Virus record (IMG/VR): IMGVR_UViG_3300025276_003896
Location: 1-32,400 of that record
Direction: 5' to 3' (one strand)
Length of the DNA stretch: 32,400 bases
Source of the DNA: a virus
In this document: piece by piece, positions 9,161-22,483 of the stretch
Position numbering within the stretch: the stretch's first letter is position 1
Layout: every line of letters begins with the position of its first letter
Made by a program: the position numbers and the translations under genes
Notes under the pieces: model-generated
What the model was told of the DNA's origin: nothing
What the model saw: only the letters and a program-made list of their open reading frames with translations
Databases searched by the model: none

Positions 9161-9174
9161 TTTATTATAAATAT
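9161..9174 (-). promoter_or_regulatory. Repeated AT-rich 14-mer, copy 2
   Basis: An exact copy of ATATTTATAATAAA lies 10 nt before the ATG of the holin-like gene, overlapping by one base the end of the upstream gene. Its position close to a start is the same as for the copy at 3403-3416. Confidence 0.3.
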
Positions 9175-10814
9175 TAGAATTGAAAACGAGAACCAATAGT
9201 GAAAGATAATAAAGACTTTATCTCTTTATTGGTGTTACTTGATACGTTTACTCCTAAGTTTAAGACGAACCTTTTTGATAATGCATAATTACCGCTAACC
9301 CCAGTTATTACTGCTATATCCTTATTTTCTATAGTTGTATTACTGTATAAATCTTGCATATGTAAAGGTAAAGAAAATGCAACCATAGGAGATAGTGAAA
9401 ACCTTTCAAAGTTGTATGACTTCGTGTAAAATCCAGTCAAAGATATCGAAAGTAAGGAGGTATCTAGATAAATACCTTCTTTAGAAACTTGATAGTTTAA
9501 GAAAATACTTGTTGCTCCAGCTGAGATTCCTATTACTGATCCCTTCTTTCCCAGCCTTACTATACTGTGATTACTTCCAGCTGTCAATGTAGAATACATT
9601 CTGCTACCCATTAATGAAGTAGAGTAGACATACTTAGGTATTCCCTTTACAAAAAATACTTTAGAAAAGTTAACCATTAACATATACTGTTTTAGGTTTG
9701 ACCAAATCATAGAGTTTAAAGCATACGTCTTATCTCCTCGAAGAGAACTTCTTGAGACTCCTAAAGTCATAGCAACATCAAAGCTTCCTAGTAGGTTCTC
9801 CATTGAGGATACATTAGCTACTACAATAGGAGGATTTACATTCTTCTTTTTCTTTTTCTCCTCTTCTTCTTCATCTTCTTCAGTCTCTTCCGTAGATTCG
9901 TCTTCCTTATCTTCTTCTGATTCCTCTTCTTCAGTCTCTTCCGTAGATTCATCTTCCTTATCTTCTTCTGATTCCTCTTTAGACTCCTCTTCTTTAATTT
10001 CCTCCTCTTCTGCTACTTCTTCTTGTTCATCCGATTTAGAGTCGTCACTATCGTCGCTCTCTCCTTCAGTGTCATTCCCTTCACTACTTGAATCTTCTGA
10101 CTCTTCTGATGAAGTGTTATCTCCTTCTTGACTTTCTGTGGACTCTGTAGACTCCGAATCTGAACTTTCAGATCCTTGATTTTCATTTGTGTCTCCCGTC
10201 TCTGTGCTTGAACTATCGTTCGTTGAGTTCGATTCTGAACTAGTATTTCCTTCACTAGTTCCACTGCTTGTATCATTTCCTGAAGTTTGAGAAGATGTAT
10301 TTTCACTCTCAGTAACAGGACTTTTACTTGATGTTGTAGATGTTTCATTAGTTGTGTTTTTAGTTAATCCTGTTGAAGCAGAAGGGGTATCTACTACCGA
10401 TGTTTCTGGTACAGGGGTAACTGTTACCGGTGGTTCTGCTGCAGGGATAACCGTTGCCGGTGTTTGAGCGGCTGCGGCAGTTGCTGCTTTTGTGGCCTCC
10501 GTTGCTGTCTGTTGGACAGTCTGCTGTGTTGCAGTTATCGTTACTTGTGATTGAGAACAAGGGCTAAAGTTAGTCCATCTTAAATATACACCCTCTAACC
10601 AAGATTGTAAAGATCCGTTCTTGAAATCTTGTGAACTAAACACTCTTGATTGGTCGTAGAAAGATACCACAGTCTGACCATTCATCGGAACCGTGAATAC
10701 TTTAGTTTCTCCGGTGCAACGATCTGTATAATAACTAGTTAAGATTTGAGATTTACCTACATATCCAAATAGTAAAATAGTAATTATTAATAGTTTACGA
10801 ACCTGATTGTGCAT
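9174..10814 (-). CDS. Outer-membrane barrel protein with long acidic Ser/Thr linker
   Basis: A 546-residue secreted protein in three parts. Residues 1-23 are a signal peptide, with likely cleavage at GKS before QILT. Residues 24-90 form a small domain with two cysteines (C33, C86) that could form a disulfide. Residues 95-325 are low-complexity: Ala/Thr/Pro-rich, then Ser/Thr/Asn/Gly, then Asp/Glu-rich, ending in a Lys run. Residues about 335-546 show alternating amphipathic strands (GVSRSSLRGDKTY, VIGISAGATSIFLNYQ) and end in GSRFQF, with C-terminal Phe, as in outer-membrane beta-barrels. It is the last gene of the run that includes the CsgG-like protein, 31 nt after it, so it may be the cargo, anchor or partner of that pore. 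I know no named family for it. Confidence 0.75.
   Translation of the reverse strand: MHNQVRKLLIITILLFGYVGKSQILTSYYTDRCTGETKVFTVPMNGQTVVSFYDQSRVFSSQDFKNGSLQSWLEGVYLRWTNFSPCSQSQVTITATQQTVQQTATEATKAATAAAAQTPATVIPAAEPPVTVTPVPETSVVDTPSASTGLTKNTTNETSTTSSKSPVTESENTSSQTSGNDTSSGTSEGNTSSESNSTNDSSSTETGDTNENQGSESSDSESTESTESQEGDNTSSEESEDSSSEGNDTEGESDDSDDSKSDEQEEVAEEEEIKEEESKEESEEDKEDESTEETEEEESEEDKEDESTEETEEDEEEEEKKKKKNVNPPIVVANVSSMENLLGSFDVAMTLGVSRSSLRGDKTYALNSMIWSNLKQYMLMVNFSKVFFVKGIPKYVYSTSLMGSRMYSTLTAGSNHSIVRLGKKGSVIGISAGATSIFLNYQVSKEGIYLDTSLLSISLTGFYTKSYNFERFSLSPMVAFSLPLHMQDLYSNTTIENKDIAVITGVSGNYALSKRFVLNLGVNVSSNTNKEIKSLLSFTIGSRFQF
9878..9979 (-). repeat. 51-bp direct duplication in the acidic linker
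   Basis: Two adjacent 51-bp copies (9878-9928 and 9929-9979) differ at one base (9900 against 9951). They encode two copies of a 17-residue acidic unit (EESEEDKEDESTEETEE). The near identity at the DNA level points to a recent in-frame duplication, so linker length is probably variable among relatives. Confidence 0.93.
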
Positions 10815-10845
10815 TTGATGCGGTTTATCTTATAAGATATTAAAA

Positions 10846-11586
10846 TTATTGAGTACTTTCAAGTCTCTCCCATAATTTTCTGCGGATCATCCGCTTAACT
10901 ATTTTAGCTACAGAAGTTTCAAGTGCCTTCTTTGTTGCTGTTCCAATACTGCTTTGGTTGAACTTTATCTCAGTTAAGTTTTCATCGTTCAATAAGGTCA
11001 TTTCTCTGATGGTTGTTGCCTTTCCAAGACCTGAACCTGAGAAGTATAGTCCAGTTTCAGAATCTACCATTTTAACTTGCATTCCTAATCTAGTAACTAA
11101 GTCTTCTTTAACTCCGCCTTTAAGGTTTATAGTTTCATCATTACTGATACTAAAATCATAGAGCTCAACGTAAAGGAAATACTTTGCCAGTGTTATATTT
11201 CCTACTATGTCCACTGTGTTCGCTGTAAAACCTTTAGCTGATGCTGTGTGTTGTGTTACCATTCTATCTTTAATAGCATCTTTAGTTTCTACGAACTCAA
11301 ATCTGGGCCATAATTCATCAAGATAAGCAAGAGTTATGTTAGTAAGACCAAGTCCTACTCTATAATCTCCAAGTTCTGGGTACTGTTTTAGAACTTCTTC
11401 GCTTATGCCAATGTTTAACAATGCAATCGGAATAGATTCACCATCATATTCTGGGATTGTCCATAAAGATTCTCTACTTTCAAAAGTTGCAGTGTAGTCC
11501 TCCGTGCTAGTACGGCCCAAGTTTTGTCCATAAATGGCTTGGACCGTGCACAGCAACAGGGTAATCAGGGTTATTTTGCTTTTCAT
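10846..11586 (-). CDS. CsgG-family outer-membrane secretion pore protein
   Basis: CsgG forms the outer-membrane channel of the curli (type VIII) export system. This 246-residue protein matches the family through most of its length. GLGLTNITLAYLDELWPRFEFVE fits the CsgG helix and strand around LVTALKDSRWFIPLER. VDIVGNITLAKYFLYVELYDF fits the ANIMVEGSI strand. MQVKMVDSETGLYFSGSG fits the LRVVNVSTGEILSS strand, and ATKKALETSVAKIVKRMI fits the last helix. The start is taken at ATG 11586, which gives a signal peptide (MKSKITLITLLLC...YGQ) and lies 1 nt after the stop of the gene before; a longer frame to 11625 exists but would bury the signal peptide. Unlike E. coli CsgG it has no clear lipobox. 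Membrane hairpin residues would be in the ISNDETINLKGG region. Confidence 0.78.
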   Translation of the reverse strand: MKSKITLITLLLCTVQAIYGQNLGRTSTEDYTATFESRESLWTIPEYDGESIPIALLNIGISEEVLKQYPELGDYRVGLGLTNITLAYLDELWPRFEFVETKDAIKDRMVTQHTASAKGFTANTVDIVGNITLAKYFLYVELYDFSISNDETINLKGGVKEDLVTRLGMQVKMVDSETGLYFSGSGLGKATTIREMTLLNDENLTEIKFNQSSIGTATKKALETSVAKIVKRMIRRKLWERLESTQ

Positions 11587-11587
11587 A

Positions 11588-11761
11588 TTACCAGGCTTTA
11601 ACATCAGCAATCCCAAAGGTTGCATTCGAAATGTCAGCGTCTCCAGTGATAACTGAATATACTAGCAACGTGAATGTAACGGCTACTGTTAATGTTAAAA
11701 ATCCAATAAAGCTTACGCCAACCCACTCAATCGGGGTCATGTCTTTAAATAGTGTCTTCAT
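11588..11761 (-). CDS. 57-residue single-span membrane protein
   Basis: A small gene read directly from the sequence: ATG at 11761-11759, stop TAA at 11590-11588. The protein begins MKTLFKDMTPIEWVGVSF and has one hydrophobic span at about 13-38 (IEWVGVSFIGFLTLTVAVT), followed by a short tail ending in DVKAW. The stop is one base from the ATG of the CsgG-like gene (TAA-T-ATG), so the two are almost certainly translationally coupled. Upstream, 27 nt separate it from the next gene, including a 9-bp tandem repeat (11766-11783). I recognise no family; as an inner-membrane peptide beside a secretion pore it could be an assembly or regulatory partner. Confidence 0.72.
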   Translation of the reverse strand: MKTLFKDMTPIEWVGVSFIGFLTLTVAVTFTLLVYSVITGDADISNATFGIADVKAW

Positions 11762-11788
11762 TATATTAGGGTTATTAGGGTTATTTTT

Positions 11789-12034
11789 TTACCAGGTAAG
11801 TTTCTCTTTTATCTTTTCTGTTTTTTTTGGTTTAATATATATCTTCTTAACGATGGTGTCTTTTTTTACTTCTTGTTGTGGAATATTAATAATGATTTGT
11901 GGAGCTGTTTCTATAGTTTTTTCCACTACCGTCTCTTCTTCTTCTCCTTCAAATAAACTTTTTATTAATAATCCACCACCAGTTGTAATAGCTAATGTTA
12001 TTATACCGATAATTGCTTTTTTAATGTCTTCCAT
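11789..12034 (-). CDS. Small membrane-anchored periplasmic protein with Lys-rich tail
   Basis: An 81-residue protein with one N-terminal membrane span (about 6-27, KKAIIGIITLAITTGGGLLIK). An acidic patch follows (EGEEEET), then an extended section with many Val, Ile, Pro and Lys residues (INIPQQEVKKDTIVKK, KPKKTEKIKEK). The extended charged region after a single anchor recalls proteins that reach across the periplasm, such as TonB-like or inner-membrane spanin-like proteins, though no family motif is seen. It begins 4 nt after the lipoprotein gene, in the CsgG-type operon. A membrane anchor next to a lipoprotein gene is the arrangement of two-component spanins, but the gene order is reversed from the usual one. 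Confidence 0.65.
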   Translation of the reverse strand: MEDIKKAIIGIITLAITTGGGLLIKSLFEGEEEETVVEKTIETAPQIIINIPQQEVKKDTIVKKIYIKPKKTEKIKEKLTW

Positions 12035-12038
12035 AATG

Positions 12039-12407
12039 CTATTGCTTTATTACTAATCTTACGTTATGTAATACTATCCCATCTTTACCAACGATTATAT
12101 TATAATCACCACCTTGAAGTGCTTTAGTGTAAAACTTCATTACATTATCTCCAGATTTAGCATCTATTATGCTTTTAGAAGTTAGGTTTCTAAAGTAGTC
12201 TCTTATTTCTATTGTATATTTACCTTCCTCTAATACTTTTAGATTAAACTTACTTCCGTCTGTTATATTAGATCCCTCAAACTTTAGTCCTGTAGTTTCA
12301 GTTATTAACATACTACCGACTGTATTAGAGTTAATAGTTGTGATTTCTAAGTAGTCATCCTTAGCACAACCTAAGGTTATTAATAATATAAATAATACTT
12401 TTTTCAT
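12039..12407 (-). CDS. Small lipoprotein, possibly surface-exposed
   Basis: A 122-residue protein with a lipoprotein signal peptide: basic start MKKV, hydrophobic core, and ITLGC with C14 as the lipid-modified cysteine (a relaxed lipobox). After the cysteine comes A-K-D-D, which fits the K-(D/E)2 lipoprotein export signal described for surface lipoproteins of Bacteroidetes such as Capnocytophaga; surface exposure is therefore an inference. The rest looks like a small beta domain (GKYTIEIRDYF, GGDYNIIVGKDGIV). It starts with ATG sharing one base with the stop of the cohesin-like gene (TAATG), which implies tight coupling. Function unknown; in context an accessory factor of the CsgG-type pore or an o-spanin-like lipoprotein. 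Confidence 0.72.
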   Translation of the reverse strand: MKKVLFILLITLGCAKDDYLEITTINSNTVGSMLITETTGLKFEGSNITDGSKFNLKVLEEGKYTIEIRDYFRNLTSKSIIDAKSGDNVMKFYTKALQGGDYNIIVGKDGIVLHNVRLVIKQ

Positions 12408-14086
12408 TATTGTAAGTTTAATATTAATCTACGTCCATCTATGTCAGCAGCATCAGTATTGAATATTGATACTAAACCAACTGGTGAGGTTACGTTTCCA
12501 GTAAAATATATTTTAAATACATCTCCTGTTTCTATTTCACCTCCGTTTTGTTCTATACTACCTAAGTTAACTCTACCATTAGTTTCTGAAGCAAAGTTAG
12601 TTACCGTATTACCTGTATTGAATACTGCTTCTTCAAAAGTTAATACTGTACTATCGTAATTAACTTTTAACTGTAAAGCTGATACGTTAAATGAGTTAAG
12701 TTTTAAAGTTGCTACTACTTTACCATCTTCTATAGCAGTTAACCATTCACCATTTATAAACCCATCTGTTTTTTTGGATTCTCCATATGAATAGGATTTA
12801 GCAGTTTGAGAACTAGCAGCATCACCATCTACTGATGATGAGTGTGAACCATTTGCATCTCCTACAAATCCAAACTTAAACCACTCTGTATATGATGATT
12901 GAGTAAAATTAATCGATAGGGGGTGTGTTAATGATGAGTTAGGTTCAGTTATGTTGTTTTTAAACTTATATACTGACCAAGTGTTCCAATCATCTTTTTT
13001 AACAGGATGAAAAGAGTTATTAAATACTCCCGTCCCATCATTAGGAATAATATCTACTACTCCCATTACATGGCCTAATAAGTTATAAGCATCTTGTGGA
13101 TTTAAATCTCTATTTTCGTCTGTATCCACAGCTGTATATTGCCACCCATAGGTAAATTCATTACCTCCATTACCATGTGAGTATTTACCTAACTCCTTTA
13201 ATGTTAAAGTAACATCTGATAATGTAATAACGTTATCCATAAGAGACTCCCATTGAGTAGCTGAGTATGATGTTACAAAATCTAATGTATAACTATCTGT
13301 GCTTGTAAGAACATAATCTGTTATATTAATCTGTCCTCCTGAGTCAAAGTATAAGTTATTGCTAACTGATGTACCGTTCTTTTTTATGACTACTCCTATT
13401 TTAGTTACATCTATGTTAGTGTTAAAATCTGCTTTAACATATATGTTTGAATTTAAATCTTCTAATGGTTTATGAGAAACGGACATAATATCATATCCTC
13501 TTACTTTACCAACTGGGAAAACGTATTCTTCTGTGCCTGTGTTATCAGTTACTCTAGCCATAGTTACTACTATGTTATCAGTATAGCTATGATTAGCACC
13601 AGCATCCTTAGCTAAAAACTTTAATGTAGCATAGTTACCAGATATTGCTGTAGTGGATACTGCTTCAACGTGATCAACTGACCATCCAGCTACTTGTGAA
13701 TATGATCCACCTTGAGTAGACCATTGTGCCCATAAGTCGTTAGCATCGTAGTTAGGATTTACTGTCCACTTTTGACCATTACCACTCCAGTTACTAAGAG
13801 TTGATTGTGCTCCTGTTGGTACCGAAAACTCATGTCCTACTCTGGCATATGCATTAGTGTTATATTGTAAATCTACGTGTATGTAAGTTATTATATTAGA
13901 GCTTAAGTTACTTATATTAAGCTTCATTATAATAGTATCGTTAACCTGTACACTAGATAATGCTTTGTTTGCATCTTGTGTAGTACCAGAGTATACTAAG
14001 TCAATATCTATACCGTCTGAGGATGAGGTTAGTTGGCCTAAAAGCGTAATAGGTAGTAATATTATAAAAAATAATAGTTTTTTCAT
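12407..14086 (-). CDS. Secreted protein with cohesin-like and dockerin-like parts
   Basis: A 559-residue exported protein with signal peptide 1-17 (PITLLG before QLTSS). Residues about 25-195 form a beta-rich domain like cohesin/carbohydrate-binding modules (IIMKLNISNLSSNIITYIHVDLQY). Around 315-342 a dockerin/EF-hand-like calcium loop is seen: D321, D323, N325 and D332 at positions 1, 3, 5 and 12, followed by AYNLLGHVMG. A second loop-like site is GDANGSHSSSVDGDA (409-423). Residues about 450-559 form a second cohesin-like domain (LQLKVNYDSTVLTFEEAVF). No type IX secretion tail is visible. The ATG overlaps the stop of the gene before by 4 nt (ATGA). It could be the surface cargo, an adhesin or a decoy, of the CsgG-type system. 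The domain calls come from pattern only. Confidence 0.68.
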   Translation of the reverse strand: MKKLLFFIILLPITLLGQLTSSSDGIDIDLVYSGTTQDANKALSSVQVNDTIIMKLNISNLSSNIITYIHVDLQYNTNAYARVGHEFSVPTGAQSTLSNWSGNGQKWTVNPNYDANDLWAQWSTQGGSYSQVAGWSVDHVEAVSTTAISGNYATLKFLAKDAGANHSYTDNIVVTMARVTDNTGTEEYVFPVGKVRGYDIMSVSHKPLEDLNSNIYVKADFNTNIDVTKIGVVIKKNGTSVSNNLYFDSGGQINITDYVLTSTDSYTLDFVTSYSATQWESLMDNVITLSDVTLTLKELGKYSHGNGGNEFTYGWQYTAVDTDENRDLNPQDAYNLLGHVMGVVDIIPNDGTGVFNNSFHPVKKDDWNTWSVYKFKNNITEPNSSLTHPLSINFTQSSYTEWFKFGFVGDANGSHSSSVDGDAASSQTAKSYSYGESKKTDGFINGEWLTAIEDGKVVATLKLNSFNVSALQLKVNYDSTVLTFEEAVFNTGNTVTNFASETNGRVNLGSIEQNGGEIETGDVFKIYFTGNVTSPVGLVSIFNTDAADIDGRRLILNLQ

Positions 14087-14574
14087 AGCTTTAATCTTTC
14101 AATAAGTTCTATACATGCTTTTTTTAATGATGTTGAGACTGAAGCTTGTGAAAATGTTCCCCCTTGATCTATGATTAAAGTAGAGGTTGATATACTCTTA
14201 GATTGCCCTCTTACTACTTTAGATTTAACCTTCTTCCCGTTTTTATAAAGTGTTCCTTCTATAATAACATTGGTTATATCTACATTCTTAGAGTATATAG
14301 CAAGCTGAGCCGATGCTTGTTGTTTTCCGAAAAATAAAATGCTTACCTCTAATACGAGGTTTGATGATGGATCTAGATAGTATTCTCTATCCTGGAGTAC
14401 TTCTTCAAGTATATTGGATACTCCAAATTCTAAGTTTGGGTTACCGGCTAGGTCTCCGGAAACTATTCTGTTCTCAATCTTACCTACAAATATAGTTTTC
14501 TCGTCATGACTTCCAAAGCCAAATAAGACAAGAAACACTATACTCGTGAGTATTAGTCTTCTTACTGTTATCAT
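14083..14574 (-). CDS. Exported protein with CsgG-like C-terminal pattern
   Basis: A 163-residue protein with a signal peptide (MITVRRLILTSIVFLVLFGFG) and no lipid-modified cysteine. The mature part has alternating strands (NLVLEVSILFFG, ITNVIIEGTLYKNGK) and ends in a helix after SQASVSTSLKKACIELIERL. This recalls the last helix of CsgG-family and related periplasmic proteins, but no full family match can be claimed; CsgE and CsgF hallmarks are absent. It is the first gene of the run that ends at the outer-membrane barrel (9174), with the terminator at 14686-14716 upstream, and it overlaps the cohesin-like gene by 4 nt. A periplasmic adaptor for the pore is the most natural reading. Confidence 0.6.
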   Translation of the reverse strand: MITVRRLILTSIVFLVLFGFGSHDEKTIFVGKIENRIVSGDLAGNPNLEFGVSNILEEVLQDREYYLDPSSNLVLEVSILFFGKQQASAQLAIYSKNVDITNVIIEGTLYKNGKKVKSKVVRGQSKSISTSTLIIDQGGTFSQASVSTSLKKACIELIERLKL

Positions 14575-14743: not shown

Positions 14744-15280
14744 TTATAAGATGAGCTTCAATATAGTTTCTACTGTGTTCTCTCCTACTTGTACTTCATG
14801 ATAAGGTATATTATGCTCATCTAACTTCTCTACGCATAGTTTATCTATTGCTAGAGACTCTTCTAAGTCTTGAAATCTCTCACCTTCATCATGAGAACCT
14901 TCTGTTCTTTTTAACATTATATTAAGATTGTCATATTTTTTATGTAAATCTACTACCATGTTATGAAAACTTTGACCGTAAAACTCTGCCGGATATCCTG
15001 ACGTATAATAACTATGGTATATAGTTGAAAACATTATTGGTGAATCTATTATTATGTAATCAACCTTTCCATATGATTGAGCTATCCCTCTATGCTGATT
15101 AGCAAATACATACAGCTGATCTTGTATAGCTGGATAGTTTTTATCCCACGCTAATGTCTTAGGAAACTCATAAGGGTTGTTGCAACTAATATGATTCTTT
15201 TTTAACTCATAAAACAATCCTGCTGCTATTGTTGATTTACCAGCTCCAGGACCAGAAAATAGATTTATTAACTTACTCAT
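14744..15280 (-). CDS. P-loop NTPase, nucleotide-kinase-like
   Basis: A 178-residue cytoplasmic P-loop protein. Walker A is GPGAGKST (10-17), and a Walker-B-like strand VDYIIIDSP comes at about 93-101. The SPIMFSTIYHSYY segment after it and the NIMLKRTEG strand (lid-like) resemble AAA_28/AAA_33-type kinases and NadR- or thymidylate-kinase-like folds. The substrate cannot be told. The start ATG shares one base with the stop of the S1/P1 nuclease gene (TAATG), and a strong terminator follows its stop. Kinase activity on a nucleoside or nucleotide released by the adjacent nuclease is an attractive but unproved link. Confidence 0.75.
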   Translation of the reverse strand: MSKLINLFSGPGAGKSTIAAGLFYELKKNHISCNNPYEFPKTLAWDKNYPAIQDQLYVFANQHRGIAQSYGKVDYIIIDSPIMFSTIYHSYYTSGYPAEFYGQSFHNMVVDLHKKYDNLNIMLKRTEGSHDEGERFQDLEESLAIDKLCVEKLDEHNIPYHEVQVGENTVETILKLIL

Positions 15281-16056
15281 TATCCTAATATATGATTGAT
15301 TAATGCTCCTAATCGTTTACCTGCCATGAATAACCTATCCTCTAATATTGGTTTGTATTTGTAGATATAATCGTATGAAAGGTAATCACCTTCCTTTGTG
15401 TTCTCGTAGATGTCTTTTGCATGTTGATGTGATTCATAGGCCCACTCAACTGCAACTCTTTGGTCTACTATTGTTTTTCTGTTTTTATTCTCCAAGTAAG
15501 TTGACCATTCCGTATAACTCATTTTGAAATCATCTATTAAGTTACTATCCCAAAGTACATGTAAATTAGTGTTTGTTTCAACACCTTTTCTACCTTTGAA
15601 CTTTAATCTTATCTTGCTTCCGCCATAATCAGAATATCTTCCTGTATGCATTGGTTGATGTAGATCTCCTACCAAATGTACTAAATACTTTAAATAGAAC
15701 TTCTTACGGTCTTTAGTAGCATCTTTTGACTTAAGGATCTCAATTGCTTTGTTGATTATTGTAACAACGTTCTCCTCTGTATGCTCCATCTCTGAATATT
15801 CCTTGTCTAATGGTAAGTTTACATAATGCCATTTGTCATAAGGTCTCCAGTCTGGATTACTTCTCATCTCATCCGCCCAAGTTGATACTGATGCTAGTGA
15901 TTCTCCGTCTAAAATATCATATACAATATCTTTTACTTCATCCGTAAGCTGTCTCTCTGCGATCTCACCTACTATCCTATGTCCAACCTTACCCCACTCA
16001 TCATTACCAAATAAAAATATAGGTACCAGTAAAATTAATAATAGTATTTTTTTCAT
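15280..16056 (-). CDS. Secreted S1/P1-type zinc nuclease
   Basis: Zinc-dependent single-strand nuclease and 3'-nucleotidase family, normally exported. A signal peptide (1-17, ending LFG) precedes NDEWGKVGHR. All nine P1 nuclease zinc ligands can be placed with exact spacing: W21, H26, D62, H77, H127, D131, H137, H166 and D170. Supporting motifs are STWAD, WHYVN, HLVGDLHQPMH and NLHVLWD. At 258 residues it has family length. In P1 the ligand Trp is the mature N-terminus; here three residues (NDE) would remain if cleavage follows the G, unless further trimming occurs. It is coupled to the P-loop NTPase gene. In the host periplasm it could degrade incoming or released nucleic acid, either to feed phosphate and nucleosides or to block rival phage DNA. 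Confidence 0.93.
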   Translation of the reverse strand: MKKILLLILLVPIFLFGNDEWGKVGHRIVGEIAERQLTDEVKDIVYDILDGESLASVSTWADEMRSNPDWRPYDKWHYVNLPLDKEYSEMEHTEENVVTIINKAIEILKSKDATKDRKKFYLKYLVHLVGDLHQPMHTGRYSDYGGSKIRLKFKGRKGVETNTNLHVLWDSNLIDDFKMSYTEWSTYLENKNRKTIVDQRVAVEWAYESHQHAKDIYENTKEGDYLSYDYIYKYKPILEDRLFMAGKRLGALINHILG

Positions 16057-16073: not shown

Positions 16074-16298
16074 TTACTTCTTTTTTTCTATTAATATCTT
16101 TCGTATGTGATATACTTGTATTCCAATGATTATAAAGTTTAATACTGCTAGAGACACTGTTCCTAATATCACAGCATATCCTAACCAAACTACTCCACCT
16201 AATACACCAAATATTCGTAACTTCAACATATCTTTCTGTAGGAACTGTGTTATTATCAGTATATTACCTATCCATCCTACTATTTCAATCCACTCCAT
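16074..16298 (-). CDS. Small membrane protein, YgjV-like
   Basis: A 74-residue protein with two to three hydrophobic helices: about 4-20 (WIEIVGWIGNILIITQF), 28-46 (RIFGVLGGVVWLGYAVILG) and 47-67. It ends in a Lys-rich tail. The layout and the WxGNxL...Q..K..L pattern are like small YgjV-type inner-membrane proteins and half-sized MtN3/PnuC-like helical bundles; no transport function can be claimed. It lies 17 nt before the S1/P1 gene and follows the terminator of the TonB receptor gene, so it is probably first in a unit with the nuclease and P-loop genes. The leader contains ATAATAAAC, shared with several other leaders here. Confidence 0.65.
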   Translation of the reverse strand: MEWIEIVGWIGNILIITQFLQKDMLKLRIFGVLGGVVWLGYAVILGTVSLAVLNFIIIGIQVYHIRKILIEKKK

Positions 16299-16354: not shown

Positions 16355-18868
16355 CTAAAACTTATATTTCAAAGATACGTTCCATGTACGTCCAAATCCG
16401 AACCATACTGAGTTGCGTGTGTCTACTCCGTTCCAAGTCTGCGATTCTGCAGTAGCTTGTATGTTGGAGTTTGACTCTGCAATATACGTAGTGTCTAATA
16501 GGTTGTTTATATTACCTCGTATACTAACTCCTGAACCAATATTTATAGTGGCTCCGAAGTCAACTAATCCGTAAGATGGTAACTTAATAGCTCCTTCGTT
16601 GTCAGGTGTTAGGAAAGCTGAATCTGTGATGCTATAATCAGCATACAAGCCATCAACAAATCTATAGTCCAAATCTAAGTTTAGTATTCCTAATCTTTGA
16701 TCTATTCCTAATAACGCTGTAATCTGTGCTGCGTCTCCTACTTTAGCGTCTTTAGTATATAAGATACCTGTACCAACCTGCTCTTGATTCTCATCAAACA
16801 AAGCTGATTCAAAGTCTTTAGTATATCTCCAGTCTCCTAATGATAACATACCACGAATCTTAGTAGATCCTGTTGGACGATAAGTTCCTTCTAACTCAAT
16901 ACCGTTGTGAACTACATCAACATTCTTAAACTGTGCAAAACCGTCAACACCTTGTTGGTTGGTTAAACTTCTCTGAACAAAACGGTTACCCCATACTGTT
17001 GAGTATGCATTGATGTTAATCTTAACAGAGTTAGAAATGAATCCATATCCTATCTCTACAGAAGTAATCTTCTCATTCTGTAAATCTTCATTTACATTAT
17101 TTGCGTATCCTGGAAATACTGATCCGAACTGAGGTTGTCTTGAAATGAACCCTGCGTTAAAGAACACATTCGAGCTCTCATTGATGTTGTAATTGGCTCC
17201 ACCTTTAAGATATCCACCAGCTACATTTTTCTTTTCAGATAAAGGATTGGTTGGTTGATCAAACAAATCCTCACGTTGGAATGACTGATTTGAAGCACCT
17301 AACTGAATAACTGCTGTAATTTTATCTCCAGAGTATTCTGCTAAACCATTAACTCCTTGCCATCCTACATGTCCAATGTTGTAGTAATCGATCTTAACTC
17401 CTGAAAGACCTGTGTCTTTAAATGGTGTTGCTTCGATAGTCGTTTCTACAATCTGACCTGCTGAGTTCTTGTTTCCTGTTGATAAGTAACCATTTAATCC
17501 CATTAGGTTGTTCATAGCTCGGTAGTGATAACCTGTGTATTTACGCAAGTCAACACCAATAGAGTAACGCATTTTACCTGATTGGATGTTTAAGTTTGAA
17601 ATACCACCAACCCAGTTGTGTGAGTTCATAGAAGCTCTACGTACCATCACAGCACGATTTACTCCATCATTACGAAAGCCATTTGATCCAATCAATGAAC
17701 CATCAAAGTTACCCCTTGCTAAGCCTCCTGTATAAGGAGAAGTAGAGGAAATATTCTCTGCTACAACTGCATCAAAATCAATAAATCCGTTAGCATCACG
17801 TGCCCCGTTTCCATCTTCTAAATAATGCTCTGTGAGATCTTTCTTGTAAGGTAGAGTGTTTGTTACTGAGTTTCTAAAGTAGTTTCCACGAGGACCTGTT
17901 CCTCCACCACGACCCGCAGAACCGTATAACGATGTTGCTAAAGTTACATTGTCAGAGATTTTATAATCCCAGTTAAACGTAGCTAAAGGTTTATTGTAGA
18001 AGTTTCTACGCATGCTAAACTCTTGTCCGTTTAATGTACCTCCGTTTGTATTCCATCGTCTGTCAATACCCTCGTCTCCGAAGTTTTGGTAATCACGAAT
18101 AGATACCCATACGTCACGTTGATGATGCCACTGTCCTGATCCTAGAAATGAGAAGTTAAACTTGTGGTCTGAACCTTCTGGAGTGTATCCTACTGCTGTA
18201 AAGTAAGTATAACCTGCTCCCCTTGTATTGTAAATATAACCATCTCCTGACCACTTCGATAGTAAATAAGATGATGACCATCCTTTCTCATTAACTCCAG
18301 TGTTATAAACAGCTGTAGTTTTGAGGTAACCATCATTACCTGTCATTTGAGTGAAAGATCCACCTTTCTCCTTATCCGCTGACTTAGTAAAAATCGAAAC
18401 GGTTCCTCCCACTGAAGGGACTGCTAACTTAGAGGCTCCTAAACCTCTTTGTATTTGGATACCTGACGTAATGTCGGACAATCCTTGCCAATTTGACCAA
18501 TAAACCCAGCCGTTCTCCATATCATTAACCGGTTGGCCGTTGATAAGAAAAGAAGTGTTACTCTGATCAAAACCACGTAATGAGATTCGGCTATCACCAT
18601 ATCCCCCTCCTTGCTTTGTTGCGTACACACCAGGTGTCTTGTTCATAATCTCTGGAAACTCTTGGTTTCCAACTTTTAAAAGTACCTCCTGTGCAGAGAT
18701 CTTTGATAAAGCAATTGGCGTTTGTCTCTCTTTTGCGATTGTTATCACTCCAGAGGTTACTACCACCTCTTCTAAGTCTACGTTTAAAATAGTCTTAGAA
18801 TCTGTACTTGTTTCCTGAGCAGAGCTCAAGCCTGATACTAATAGGATTAATCCTACAAATTTTCTCAT
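16355..18868 (-). CDS. TonB-dependent outer-membrane receptor
   Basis: A complete 837-residue TonB-dependent receptor, an outer-membrane barrel that imports bound ligands (siderophores, vitamins, glycans) using TonB energy. Signal peptide 1-17 (GLSSA before QETST). A TonB-box-like VDLEEVVVT follows at about 30-38. The plug domain (45-165) shows FPEIMNKTPGVYATKQGGG, ISLRGFD, INGQPVNDMENGWVYWSNW and VGGTVSIFTK. The barrel runs from about 170 to a terminal VSLKYKF with C-terminal Phe. There is no CarboxypepD-like N-terminal domain, and no SusD partner nearby, so it is of the simple FecA/BtuB type. The wording is strongly Bacteroidetes. No frameshift or stop interrupts it, so it is likely functional. 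It has its own terminator. Substrate unknown. Confidence 0.95.
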   Translation of the reverse strand: MRKFVGLILLVSGLSSAQETSTDSKTILNVDLEEVVVTSGVITIAKERQTPIALSKISAQEVLLKVGNQEFPEIMNKTPGVYATKQGGGYGDSRISLRGFDQSNTSFLINGQPVNDMENGWVYWSNWQGLSDITSGIQIQRGLGASKLAVPSVGGTVSIFTKSADKEKGGSFTQMTGNDGYLKTTAVYNTGVNEKGWSSSYLLSKWSGDGYIYNTRGAGYTYFTAVGYTPEGSDHKFNFSFLGSGQWHHQRDVWVSIRDYQNFGDEGIDRRWNTNGGTLNGQEFSMRRNFYNKPLATFNWDYKISDNVTLATSLYGSAGRGGGTGPRGNYFRNSVTNTLPYKKDLTEHYLEDGNGARDANGFIDFDAVVAENISSTSPYTGGLARGNFDGSLIGSNGFRNDGVNRAVMVRRASMNSHNWVGGISNLNIQSGKMRYSIGVDLRKYTGYHYRAMNNLMGLNGYLSTGNKNSAGQIVETTIEATPFKDTGLSGVKIDYYNIGHVGWQGVNGLAEYSGDKITAVIQLGASNQSFQREDLFDQPTNPLSEKKNVAGGYLKGGANYNINESSNVFFNAGFISRQPQFGSVFPGYANNVNEDLQNEKITSVEIGYGFISNSVKININAYSTVWGNRFVQRSLTNQQGVDGFAQFKNVDVVHNGIELEGTYRPTGSTKIRGMLSLGDWRYTKDFESALFDENQEQVGTGILYTKDAKVGDAAQITALLGIDQRLGILNLDLDYRFVDGLYADYSITDSAFLTPDNEGAIKLPSYGLVDFGATINIGSGVSIRGNINNLLDTTYIAESNSNIQATAESQTWNGVDTRNSVWFGFGRTWNVSLKYKF

Positions 18869-18908: not shown

Positions 18909-19331
18909 TTATTTTTTATTATTGGAAGCTACTCGTACTTCGTGCCAGTTCACTCTTCCTTTTTTTATTGCGTTCTTTATATTTCTTTGGTGTTTAAGCA
19001 ATTGACTCTTTCCACTCTTTACTTCTATAATATGAACTGCACATTTCTCCGGATCATGTGTGTCTGTAAATGATACGTAATCTATTGGCTTTGCCATAAA
19101 AATAGCTGTCTCTGGGGGTACTGGAAACTCATCCATAAATGGGACGAAGTTCTCAATAGTCATCCCCCAGTTAATAGCCGATGATTTAAATGCCGCATCT
19201 CTCCTAATCTCTCCTCGTTCCTTGTTAAAGTCTAAAACTTGTTTATCTATCTTGCTCTTTAACTTGTAAATGACAAGTGTTAATGATGCGAAAACTAATA
19301 AACTTATTACTGGTAAAACTATTGGTATCAT
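18909..19331 (-). CDS. Membrane-anchored Holliday-resolvase-like nuclease
   Basis: A 140-residue protein with an N-terminal membrane span (about 3-22) and a PD-(D/E)xK-type nuclease domain like the family described as endonuclease distantly related to archaeal Holliday junction resolvase (Endonuc_Holl). The features are a basic linker, SSAINWGMTIENFVPF (E60), the acidic KPIDYVSF (D84), and IIEVKSGKSQLLKHQRNIK (E103, K105), then AIKKGRVNW. These match the order E, PxD, ExK. The domain may cut branched or host DNA, but a membrane-tethered site is unusual for a recombination enzyme. The start is directly adjacent to the stop of the thioredoxin gene (no spacer), linking it to the nucleotide-metabolism genes. 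Confidence 0.8.
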   Translation of the reverse strand: MIPIVLPVISLLVFASLTLVIYKLKSKIDKQVLDFNKERGEIRRDAAFKSSAINWGMTIENFVPFMDEFPVPPETAIFMAKPIDYVSFTDTHDPEKCAVHIIEVKSGKSQLLKHQRNIKNAIKKGRVNWHEVRVASNNKK

Positions 19332-19589
19332 TTATGCTACTTTTTTAATTGCTGTGTTATATACATGCATCGGATTCATTCCTGATATTCTCTCAGTTCC
19401 GTTAGGCCCTTCTACGATTACTAATGGAATATTTCTTACATGGTTTGCTTGTGCTGCCTCTGGGTTAGCATCTATGTCGATGTTTAAAAAAGATACTCCA
19501 GGATTCTCACCCTTAACTGCATCTATAACAGGTGTTAAGCTCTTGCACGGCTGACACCAGTTGGCGAAATATTTAGAAACTTTAATCAT
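19332..19589 (-). CDS. Thioredoxin-like protein (CQPC)
   Basis: An 85-residue minimal thioredoxin. FANWCQPCKSL carries the redox pair C12 and C15, and NIPLVIV (cis-Pro) fits the second substrate-binding loop. The Gly of the usual CGPC is Gln here. There is no signal peptide, so it is cytoplasmic. It lies 54 nt after nrdA, and the large subunit has the C-terminal CESC pair that such proteins re-reduce, so the likely job is hydrogen donor for the phage ribonucleotide reductase. The leader TAAAAACCAAAAT is the same as before the gene at 2634-2903. Confidence 0.93.
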   Translation of the reverse strand: MIKVSKYFANWCQPCKSLTPVIDAVKGENPGVSFLNIDIDANPEAAQANHVRNIPLVIVEGPNGTERISGMNPMHVYNTAIKKVA

Positions 19590-19643: not shown

Positions 19644-21434
19644 TTAACCATCACAGCTTTCACACGTCGGGTCAGTTGCCGCTGTAGCTAAATCCCCTCT
19701 AAGTACGCTCTCCGTTCTTACGTAATATAATGTTTTTACGCCAGCTTTCCAAGCCTCCATAGTTACTTGATTGATCCATTTTGGTGTTGCTACAGATGGG
19801 AATGCTAAGTTTAATGAAACTCCTTGATCCACATACTGTTGGCGGATACCTGCTTGTTTTACTAATTCAAGTTGGTTTATTTCTTTGAAAGTTTTAAAAA
19901 CACCTTTGATTCTAAATGTCTTGTGATTATCTTCCTCTTTAACTTCATCCTTTTTAACTACTTTACCGTTAAGGTAACACCAGTTATCAAGTTCGTTGAT
20001 GTCTTGTATAGAACCTCCGTCAATTAATATCTTATCCCAAGTCTCCTTATTGTTGATTCCAATCTTACGGAATACTTTCTCAAGTTCAATGTTCTTTCTG
20101 ATGAATGTCCCCTTTGCACTCTGCTCTGTAAATACATTAGCTGCCCAAGGCTCAATACCTGCTGATACATTTCCTGATAACTTTGAGTTAGATACTGTAG
20201 GAGCTATCGCTCTTAAGTGTGTGTTTCTAAATCCACTATCTCTGCACCATAAAGGCTCTCCAAGCTCTTCTGCCATATCACGTGAAGCTCTTTCAGATTC
20301 AATCTTCATCTGTGAGAAGATCTTACGAGTTTCAAACTGTGCTGTCATTCCTTCAAATGGTATTCCATTCTGTTGGAGGTATGTGTGCCATCCTAATGCT
20401 CCAAGCCCTAAAGCTCTTCCTTTTTCAGCTGAACGTACTGAGTTCTCAAACCCTTTCATGTTCTTAGCTTTTTGGATAAACTCTTCTAATACTCCGTCAA
20501 GGAACCAAGTGGCTGTGTAAATAAGATCAGTATCTTTCCAATCATCATACTTAGCAACATTTAGTGAAGATAAACAGCATACAAATGAATGACTCTCATC
20601 AGTATGAAGCATGATCTCGGAACATATATTCGTCATATGAACCTTTAGACCATTGTCCTTGTACATAGGAGGATTCTGCTTGTTAACATTACCCTTAAAC
20701 ATAATATAAGGCTCCCCTGTTGCTTTACGCTTCTGTAGTAACTTACCCCACTTACGTCTTGCTTCAGGTTGTCCATCTTGTAGATTACGCATAAACTTAT
20801 CTCCCACTATAGCACACTGGTGCAGGTTTAGTGATTGACGGTTTACATCTCCTTTAGGTTCTCTAATCTCTAACCAGTCTTCAAAATCTCCGTGTTCTAT
20901 GTTAAGATTTACAGATGCTGCTCCTCTTCTAACACTTCCTTGATTAGTTGCTAGTATTGTTGAGTCATATATCTTAGTAAATGGTACAACTCCGTCAGAA
21001 GTTCCATTACCGGTGATATCAGCTCCTGCTGGTCTTATTTGGTTGATACCAATTCCTACTCCTCCTCCGTGCTTTGCAAGTAACATAAGCTCCAGATTCT
21101 TTGTTCCAATCTCAAAAATGCTGTCTCCAACATCAATACCGAAACATGAGATAGGAAGACCCCTGTCTGTACCTGTATTAGATAGCACAGGAGACGCTAA
21201 ACATAGCCAACCCTTCCATATGTAGTCGAAGAACTTTGAAGCCATCTCCGGCTTCTTGAGGCGTTGTGCGATCCTAGTGGATACTCTCCAGTAAGCGTCT
21301 TTAGGTGTTTCTCCTTCCGTAAGATAACCTTTTGATATTGTCTTTAAATATACCTCTGTCAAACCCCAGCTAGGAAAGTCTACATCTTTTTCCCATCCTA
21401 GTTCTTTTGCTATTTTAGTAGCCTCTTTACTCAT
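19644..21434 (-). CDS. nrdA: Class I ribonucleotide reductase, large (alpha) subunit
   Basis: Converts ribonucleoside diphosphates to deoxy forms, supplying dNTPs for phage replication. The catalytic parts are present: C97 in LPISCFG and C286/C287 (the pair C225-C462 in E. coli), N269, C271 and E273 in TNICSE, the YY pair in LYYVRTES, and a C-terminal relay C591-E-S-C594. At 596 residues it is shorter than E. coli NrdA, and the N-terminal ATP-cone is missing, so overall activity feedback by dATP is probably absent. The GSVRRGAASVNL segment is typical of the family. The start at 21434 has AAAGG just upstream. It lies next to nrdB and a thioredoxin. Confidence 0.97.
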   Translation of the reverse strand: MSKEATKIAKELGWEKDVDFPSWGLTEVYLKTISKGYLTEGETPKDAYWRVSTRIAQRLKKPEMASKFFDYIWKGWLCLASPVLSNTGTDRGLPISCFGIDVGDSIFEIGTKNLELMLLAKHGGGVGIGINQIRPAGADITGNGTSDGVVPFTKIYDSTILATNQGSVRRGAASVNLNIEHGDFEDWLEIREPKGDVNRQSLNLHQCAIVGDKFMRNLQDGQPEARRKWGKLLQKRKATGEPYIMFKGNVNKQNPPMYKDNGLKVHMTNICSEIMLHTDESHSFVCCLSSLNVAKYDDWKDTDLIYTATWFLDGVLEEFIQKAKNMKGFENSVRSAEKGRALGLGALGWHTYLQQNGIPFEGMTAQFETRKIFSQMKIESERASRDMAEELGEPLWCRDSGFRNTHLRAIAPTVSNSKLSGNVSAGIEPWAANVFTEQSAKGTFIRKNIELEKVFRKIGINNKETWDKILIDGGSIQDINELDNWCYLNGKVVKKDEVKEEDNHKTFRIKGVFKTFKEINQLELVKQAGIRQQYVDQGVSLNLAFPSVATPKWINQVTMEAWKAGVKTLYYVRTESVLRGDLATAATDPTCESCDG

Positions 21435-21487: not shown

Positions 21488-22483
21488 TTAAAATAAATCG
21501 CCCCAGTCGTCTCCTTCGTTATCTTTGCTGTAATCTGTTGGACGTATTGCAAAAAAGTCAGTACTCGTTGTTCCGCCACTCAAATGCCAAAACCAATCCA
21601 GTTCCGATGCCTGTTCTTCATTATACTCGAAAATACCTGAGTATCCTAACTCTACAAGCTTTGCGTTTGCTCTCTGCTTGATAAATTCCTTTAAATCAGT
21701 TGCCTTAATGTTTTCTAAATCTCCCATCTCAAACATCTTGTCGATAAACTTATGCTCCATGTCTACCATAAGACGTGCTGCCTCTTCAATAGATTCTCTA
21801 GTTTCTCCCTTTAAATCTGGATACTCCTCACACATATGACGGAATAACTGACATCCCATCTTTGAATGTAGAGATTCATCACGAATACTCCACTTCATTT
21901 GCTGACCAACCCCTTTAAGTAAGTTACGCATTTGGAAGCTATATAAAACTGCAAAGGATGAGAATAAAGCAACTCCTTCTGCAAATGCTGAGAATATGGC
22001 TAAACTCTTTCCTACTTCTTGACGTGCTGATGCATTGGTTGCAAGATCTTTATGAGTCCAATCGTTAGTTGTTTCTGTAAGCATCTCAAACTTATTAGCG
22101 ATAGTAGGCTCGTGCATAAACGCATCAAAGTCCTCTAATCCTAATGTCTCATTCAAATAAGAATAAGCTACAGCGTGAACTGTTTCTGATGCTCCAAATG
22201 AAATAGCCATCTGCTTAATCTCATGCTTAGGGAACCAACGTGTTACGAATGTTGACCAGTAATCTTGAACTGCACACTCTGTTTGACTGAATCCTAATAG
22301 GATGTTCCCTACTAAGTTCTTCTCTGATGGTGTTAGATTCTCATTCCAGTCTTTTACATCACCCTGCATACTAATTTCGGTGTGTAGCCACGATGCTTGT
22401 TGCATCGGAAGCCACCCTTCGGTAAAGTATATAGGGTATTCGAATGGTTTATAGGCTATTCTGTCTTCAAATAATTTTGGCAT
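21488..22483 (-). CDS. nrdB: Class I ribonucleotide reductase, small (beta) subunit
   Basis: The metal-cofactor subunit that generates the radical for NrdA. By spacing, the ligands are E69, E100, H103, E169, E203 and H206, and the radical tyrosine is Y107 (SETVHAVAYSYL). The residue matching E. coli D84 is Glu (E69), as in some non-classical subgroups, while the radical Tyr is kept, so the metal centre might not be the standard di-iron type. There is no ATP-cone. The acidic C-terminus ending DDWGDLF is the tail by which beta binds alpha. At 331 residues length is normal. It starts 2 nt after the helicase stop and ends 53 nt before the nrdA start. Confidence 0.97.
   Translation of the reverse strand: MPKLFEDRIAYKPFEYPIYFTEGWLPMQQASWLHTEISMQGDVKDWNENLTPSEKNLVGNILLGFSQTECAVQDYWSTFVTRWFPKHEIKQMAISFGASETVHAVAYSYLNETLGLEDFDAFMHEPTIANKFEMLTETTNDWTHKDLATNASARQEVGKSLAIFSAFAEGVALFSSFAVLYSFQMRNLLKGVGQQMKWSIRDESLHSKMGCQLFRHMCEEYPDLKGETRESIEEAARLMVDMEHKFIDKMFEMGDLENIKATDLKEFIKQRANAKLVELGYSGIFEYNEEQASELDWFWHLSGGTTSTDFFAIRPTDYSKDNEGDDWGDLF

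Follow-up and report, generated by a model that had tools for sequence, protein, structure and literature searches.

What does a phage do with a complete TonB-dependent receptor (TBDR)? Auxiliary genes of phages usually encode enzymes or periplasmic proteins, and TBDRs are classic phage receptors, as for T5 with FhuA. The question is raised by a linear 32.4-kb virus record from IMG/VR, which was analyzed whole (the window). It is a fragment of an immuto-like myophage, a marine virus of Bacteroidetes-type bacteria, without a capsid gene, and all of its main open reading frames (ORFs) except one are on the minus strand. Its phage-type genes encode DNA polymerase A, PhoH, ribonucleotide reductase, a DnaB-type helicase, a 5'-3' exonuclease, a UvsX/RecA-like protein and an amidase. 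The features around the receptor gene are listed below.

12407..14086, minus strand: secreted cohesin-like protein, 559 aa; in immuto-like phages it is conserved and marks the right border of the cassette
14744..15280, minus strand: P-loop kinase (PF13521; PHROG "thymidylate kinase"), from Pfam, PHROG and fold
15280..16056, minus strand: secreted S1/P1-type nuclease (PF02265, 2.5e-60), from Pfam and motifs
16074..16298, minus strand: small membrane protein, 74 aa, matching Imp-YgjV in Pfam (1.6e-6)
16349-16328, minus strand: strong intrinsic terminator of the TBDR gene, GGAGGC-TTCG-GCCTCC-TTTTTT, directly after the stop
16355..18868, minus strand (ATG at 18868): TBDR, 837 aa, intact, from ORF, Pfam and AlphaFold2 model
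18909..19331, minus strand: endonuclease related to archaeal Holliday junction resolvase; conserved left border
19332..19589, minus strand: thioredoxin-like protein, from sequence
19644..21434, minus strand: class I ribonucleotide reductase alpha, NrdA, from NCBIfam
21488..22483, minus strand: class I ribonucleotide reductase beta, NrdB, from NCBIfam

The initial annotation described a complete receptor among same-strand phage genes with its own terminator, and this description was confirmed. The ORF is uninterrupted on the minus strand, the plus-strand translation of the same span is riddled with stops, and phage genes on the same strand flank it on both sides. Pfam analysis revealed a plug (PF07715, 6.9e-11; residues about 47 to 155) and a barrel (PF00593, 3.6e-11), both exceeding the curated cut-offs. 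Inspection of the amino acid sequence revealed a hydrophobic, signal-peptide-like N terminus, a TonB-box-like segment (LEEVVVTS, residues 32 to 39) and a final Phe. The AlphaFold2 model (mean pLDDT, 85.7; pTM, 0.84) is a plugged 22-strand barrel, and its nearest solved folds are FhuA (Foldseek E, 2.3e-35), BtuB (Z, 36.7) and FecA. Plug, 22-strand barrel, TonB-box-like segment and C-terminal aromatic residue are thus all present, and by all of the sequence and fold tests run, the protein is a TBDR, with ligand transport itself predicted.

We considered whether the gene could have entered the record by an assembly chimera or by host contamination of the viral collection, given that the window lacks a capsid gene and that some genome bins hold phage contigs (e.g., L100). 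Against this, the order nrdB-nrdA-...-TBDR-S1/P1-kinase-cohesin-like recurs in two independent assemblies, L020 (89 kb) and L032, which argues against a chimera. Long TBDR contigs also carry phage markers, for which tail sheath and Gp23 were used: the Gp23 major capsid protein was found in 3/33 and tail sheath in 8/33, and Terminase_6C gave no match in these 33 contigs. Exactly one TBDR was present in 32 of the 33. We also observed that a 252-kb viral contig (L016, G004) has a second, different TBDR at 233705-234970 beside the family member. The initial annotation would have been overturned by a chimeric join, or by near-identity to one host gene with absence from related phages; neither was seen, the closest host protein being 76 to 77% identical. 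Artifact is thus an extremely improbable explanation.

The receptor is not confined to this record. At least 453 IMG/VR contigs found by exact-peptide seeds encode relatives, and the best 80 of the 453, which were kept for locus comparison, are 65 to 78% identical and lie on several phage backbones. The view that a phage copy is unusual therefore does not hold for marine Bacteroidota phages, in which hundreds of viral contigs bear the receptor, although nothing above 34% identity was found among annotated phage records. As a host-derived gene inside phage genomes, it is a candidate phage auxiliary metabolic gene, which would be expressed in infection and raise phage yield.

The bacterial relatives, aligned over their full length, reach 76 to 77% identity in marine Flavobacteriia, and others are found in Balneolota and Cytophagales. 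Copies from marine Flavobacteriia, Balneolaceae and Cytophagales (L082, L083, L088, L090 and L108), whether beside pgi or elsewhere, belong to the same family as the window copy. They differ from it in being chromosomal, and many start with an additional carboxypeptidase-like domain at the N terminus, which is absent from the window copy. Exactly one family copy was found in 21/21 host genomes tested, among 2 to 21 receptor candidates each, but when 119 genomes were drawn evenly from the order, just 21 had the family (E <= 1e-100). The notion of a host core gene was rejected on this basis: in marine Bacteroidota/Balneolota the family is one accessory receptor, present as a single copy. The usual locus in many Flavobacteriia places it beside pgi, an M23 peptidase and DUF3108. 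In several flavobacterial host loci (L095, L097, L117, L125, L126, L129, L146 and L149), the pgi-side TBDR is followed by a secreted endonuclease/exonuclease/phosphatase protein and a second TBDR, and in L129 a DUF5689 gene comes after the second TBDR.

In trees, the phage and host proteins interleave, with 16 label changes, at least 10 to 12 of them forced by strong branches. A single viral clade was rejected (log-likelihood difference, 1015; p-AU, 1.7e-54), and grouping of the window TBDR with phages L020, L042 and L045 was not (p, 0.84). The tree partners of phage copies include Balneolaceae (L031 and L043), Schleiferiaceae (L075), the Crocinitomicaceae side (L074) and Flavobacteriaceae. 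The label changes by themselves carry no direction of transfer, and phage contigs turn up in some genome bins; L100 (NZGF01000066, from a Crocinitomicaceae bin) seems to be one, and its TBDR neighbors match those of viral L059-L061. Rejection of the single viral clade, together with the forced changes, indicates that the same receptor family was captured many times, and the sequences thus point to distinct phage lineages having repeatedly taken up one host receptor family.

To compare gene neighborhoods, the 80 loci were grouped by backbone genes into A (immuto-like), B (family-B polymerase, clamp, clamp loader and GroEL) and C (QueE/FolE). In these three backbones, the TBDR heads a cassette comprised of the TBDR, a small membrane protein, a secreted S1/P1 nuclease and a nucleoside/nucleotide kinase. 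Among loci with enough sequence, the kinase lies downstream of the TBDR in 27/28 loci of backbone B, 3/5 of A and 2/3 of C, and the nuclease and small membrane protein sit between them in many loci. The reverse check gave a TBDR upstream in 19/21 kinase loci with enough flank and adjoining S1/P1 in 14/16 evaluable viral loci. At least 10 TBDR-bearing phage loci of other lineages have neither kinase nor S1/P1, so it is the receptor that stays constant across lineages. Its neighbors in other lineages encode IMP dehydrogenase, phosphoribosyltransferases, ThyX, NAD synthase and glutamine synthetase. A glutamine synthetase-like gene was observed within a few kilobases of the TBDR in one phage lineage (L064, L072 and L077-L079).

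The S1/P1 nuclease of the window has all of the Trp/His/Asp zinc-ligand motifs of its family. The phage nucleases form one clade (with L177 a distant exception) whose sister is Candidatus Arcticimaribacter, and on a host contig of this genus (L087) the TBDR is followed by an S1/P1 nuclease, a NupC-type nucleoside transporter, LOG and a secreted DNA/RNA endonuclease. Among hosts, no other locus gives a direct hint of function, and this one is based on two related genomes (L085 and L087). The kinase model is nearest in fold to NadR kinase, deoxyadenosine kinase and thymidylate kinase, and PHROGs label 27/27 members of the kinase family thymidylate kinase. The slot of the small membrane protein is occupied in other phages by a different small membrane family (m8; 72 to 81 aa), and merging m8 and the YgjV proteins into one family was not supported.

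Two further linkages proved to be lineage specific. An nrdA-TBDR pair was dropped since the TBDR adjoins 0/80 nrdA loci, and a general pairing with the secreted endonuclease was rejected since the TBDR is found at 8/80 endonuclease loci and immuto has the endonuclease without a TBDR. The secreted DNA/RNA non-specific endonuclease is common in viral contigs (L178-L256), mostly without a TBDR and often near the same kinase family or a cohesin/CsgG-like block. Thioredoxin-like homologues adjoin the TBDR in L003, L008, L009, L017 and L059-L061. Elsewhere in the window, a run of secreted proteins at 9174-14574 consists of a lipoprotein-like protein (122 aa), the cohesin-like protein (559 aa) and proteins of 163 and 259 aa, the last two CsgG/curli-export-like by eye with no Pfam match; immuto-like phages and many further viral contigs share this conserved run. 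A strand switch was seen at 11631-12056, where a 141-aa ORF lies on the plus strand; phage L020 encodes a homologue of it, about 143 aa long.

The pattern of sequence change bears on whether the receptor functions. dN/dS was 0.08 to 0.29 for phage pairs and 0.03 to 0.11 for host pairs, indicating purifying selection, and the low phage values argue that its function has been retained. Conservation is highest in the plug, and the extracellular loops are conserved to the same degree as the barrel. Whether phage is compared with host, host with host or phage with phage, the loops diverge no faster than the barrel, so escape through the loops of phage copies was rejected. Together with the conserved plug, this pattern is easier to reconcile with transport of a ligand than with a simple decoy at the cell surface, and the loop conservation is consistent with a single ligand common to the copies.

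Of the functions proposed in the initial annotation, nutrient supply fits best in view of plug conservation, purifying selection and nucleotide-salvage neighbors; decoy or exclusion is less likely, and generic competition for TonB leaves unexplained why one receptor family was captured each time. The TBDR probably feeds the infected cell and is not a stray gene, and we think it fairly likely that it imports some nutrient. It would be made during infection and inserted into the host outer membrane, where host TonB-ExbB-ExbD would power it and so raise uptake of one scarce nutrient. The cassette would then form an outside-to-inside salvage route for nucleic acid breakdown products, with the TBDR at the outer membrane, the secreted S1/P1 nuclease acting in the periplasm, the small protein taking part at the inner membrane and the kinase trapping the product as a (deoxy)nucleotide, adjoining ribonucleotide reductase. 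Behind this reading stand the intact phage gene, repeated capture, purifying selection, cassette linkage, nuclease motifs and kinase fold.

The substrate is the weak step of the proposed mechanism. The presence of S1/P1 beside the TBDR in both phage and Arcticimaribacter host, together with the nucleotide-gene neighbors, makes a nucleic-acid-derived substrate the most likely, but neighbors alone are weak evidence, because nucleotide genes are in any case plentiful in these phages. The extracellular loops are net negative (25 K+R versus 40 D+E), which would be surprising if DNA or RNA itself were the ligand; the usual host locus has no nucleotide gene to indicate the substrate; and the loci without kinase and S1/P1 also count against it. 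That the receptor is a host-derived, working auxiliary transporter of a nucleic-acid-derived substrate is accordingly put forward tentatively, as a serious possibility somewhat short of even. It is doubtful, although conceivable, that in marine Bacteroidota phages the salvage route for nucleic acid breakdown products is complete from envelope to cytoplasm, made up of receptor, periplasmic nuclease, small inner-membrane carrier and trapping kinase, with a receptor that was repeatedly exchanged with hosts and an S1/P1 nuclease of one phage lineage.

The receptor might instead import iron, a siderophore, haem, cobalamin or another scarce nutrient as general growth support, with its cassette neighbors as unrelated cargo. 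Class I ribonucleotide reductase normally needs metal, the loops are net negative, several phage lineages have the TBDR without the cassette, and the closest folds are FhuA, FecA and BtuB, though these dominate solved TBDRs. The weak profile scores also go to receptors of this kind, but they fall far under the curated cut-offs, both for the siderophore (TIGR01783; 69.2 versus 223.5) and haem-transferrin (TIGR01786; 69.1 versus 323.75) subfamilies and for the cobalamin receptor BtuB equivalog (TIGR01779; 49.8 bits versus 599.7). The SusC/RagA glycan receptor model was absent from the NCBIfam matches, and Pfam scans of the neighboring genes gave no SusD partner. NCBIfam and PDB sequence searches yielded no substrate call, and fold comparison returned generic TBDR matches only, with no solved relative pointing to a ligand. 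Since such an importer also leaves the S1/P1 linkage in phage and host unexplained, we regard it as a minority possibility, though a serious rival.

The remaining alternatives concern competing or repeat infection. The phage copy could mask, replace or out-compete the host receptor to which rival phages, or the carrying phage itself, adsorb, for example as a decoy on debris; pb5 and Llp complexes were among the structural matches of the model, and repeated capture of one family fits if that family is a common adsorption target. Such superinfection exclusion is likewise a serious rival but rather unlikely, since conservation peaks in the plug, for which a surface decoy would have no need, the loops of phage-host pairs diverge no faster than the barrel, and the gene sits in a replication/nucleotide block with kinase and nuclease. 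PADLOC anti-phage defense models matched neither the TBDR nor four of its neighbors. Alternatively, any overexpressed TBDR could titrate TonB and block the TonB-dependent infection of rivals, as the TonB-box-like segment would allow. This is highly unlikely, because it does not explain why the same family was captured each time from the receptor repertoire or why the loops were kept. Nutrient import remains our preferred reading. If the complete salvage route also proves true, uptake across the outer membrane would be a routine target of viral reprogramming. Phage lineages keep taking one outer membrane transporter, from a protein class more often exploited as a phage doorway. The finding offers a direct way to test what restricts the growth of phages in marine Bacteroidota. 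It may also show what an orphan receptor family transports, and it is relevant to the movement of receptor genes between bacteria and phages.

A TBDR in a phage is not unprecedented, as the marine megaphage Mar_Mega_1 has a putative SusC-type TBDR, also found in LR745206, which its authors read as boosting uptake during infection (PMC9723777). Both are TonB-dependent receptors in marine phages, but in the passage concerned the Mar_Mega_1 gene is a single one, read as serving carbohydrate uptake, with no cassette or repeated capture described (PMC9723777). LR745206 matches the window TBDR over residues 24 to 228 only, at 31% identity. In the literature searched, which excludes most subscription journals, this was the only report bearing on phage-borne TBDRs, and descriptions of repeated capture, of the cassette and of the receptor's prevalence were not found. 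A second comparison is the outer membrane DNA uptake receptor RA0C_RS04915 of Riemerella anatipestifer with its DUF5689 partner, for which the authors proposed carriage of nucleic acid (PMC8459023); the DUF5689 family is required for DNA uptake in Riemerella. Like the window family, this receptor is of the flavobacterial outer membrane, and in some genera a DUF5689-linked TBDR adjoins the host locus of the family. It is nevertheless a different gene, set apart by DUF5689 linkage and locus: the window family is pgi-side, the DUF5689-linked host gene is a separate TBDR, and the phages have no DUF5689 partner. The closest isolated phage by UvsX (63%) is Flavobacterium phage vB_FspM_immuto_2-6A (NC_055915). 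It shares with the window the order ssb-UvsX-exonuclease-helicase-NrdB-NrdA-Holliday-type endonuclease, the endonuclease adjoining nrdA there too, and has a cohesin-domain gene further on. Unlike in the window, no gene for a TBDR, S1/P1 nuclease or kinase lies in the interval from the Holliday-type endonuclease to the cohesin-like gene, and the immuto locus is a natural empty-site comparison for the window cassette.
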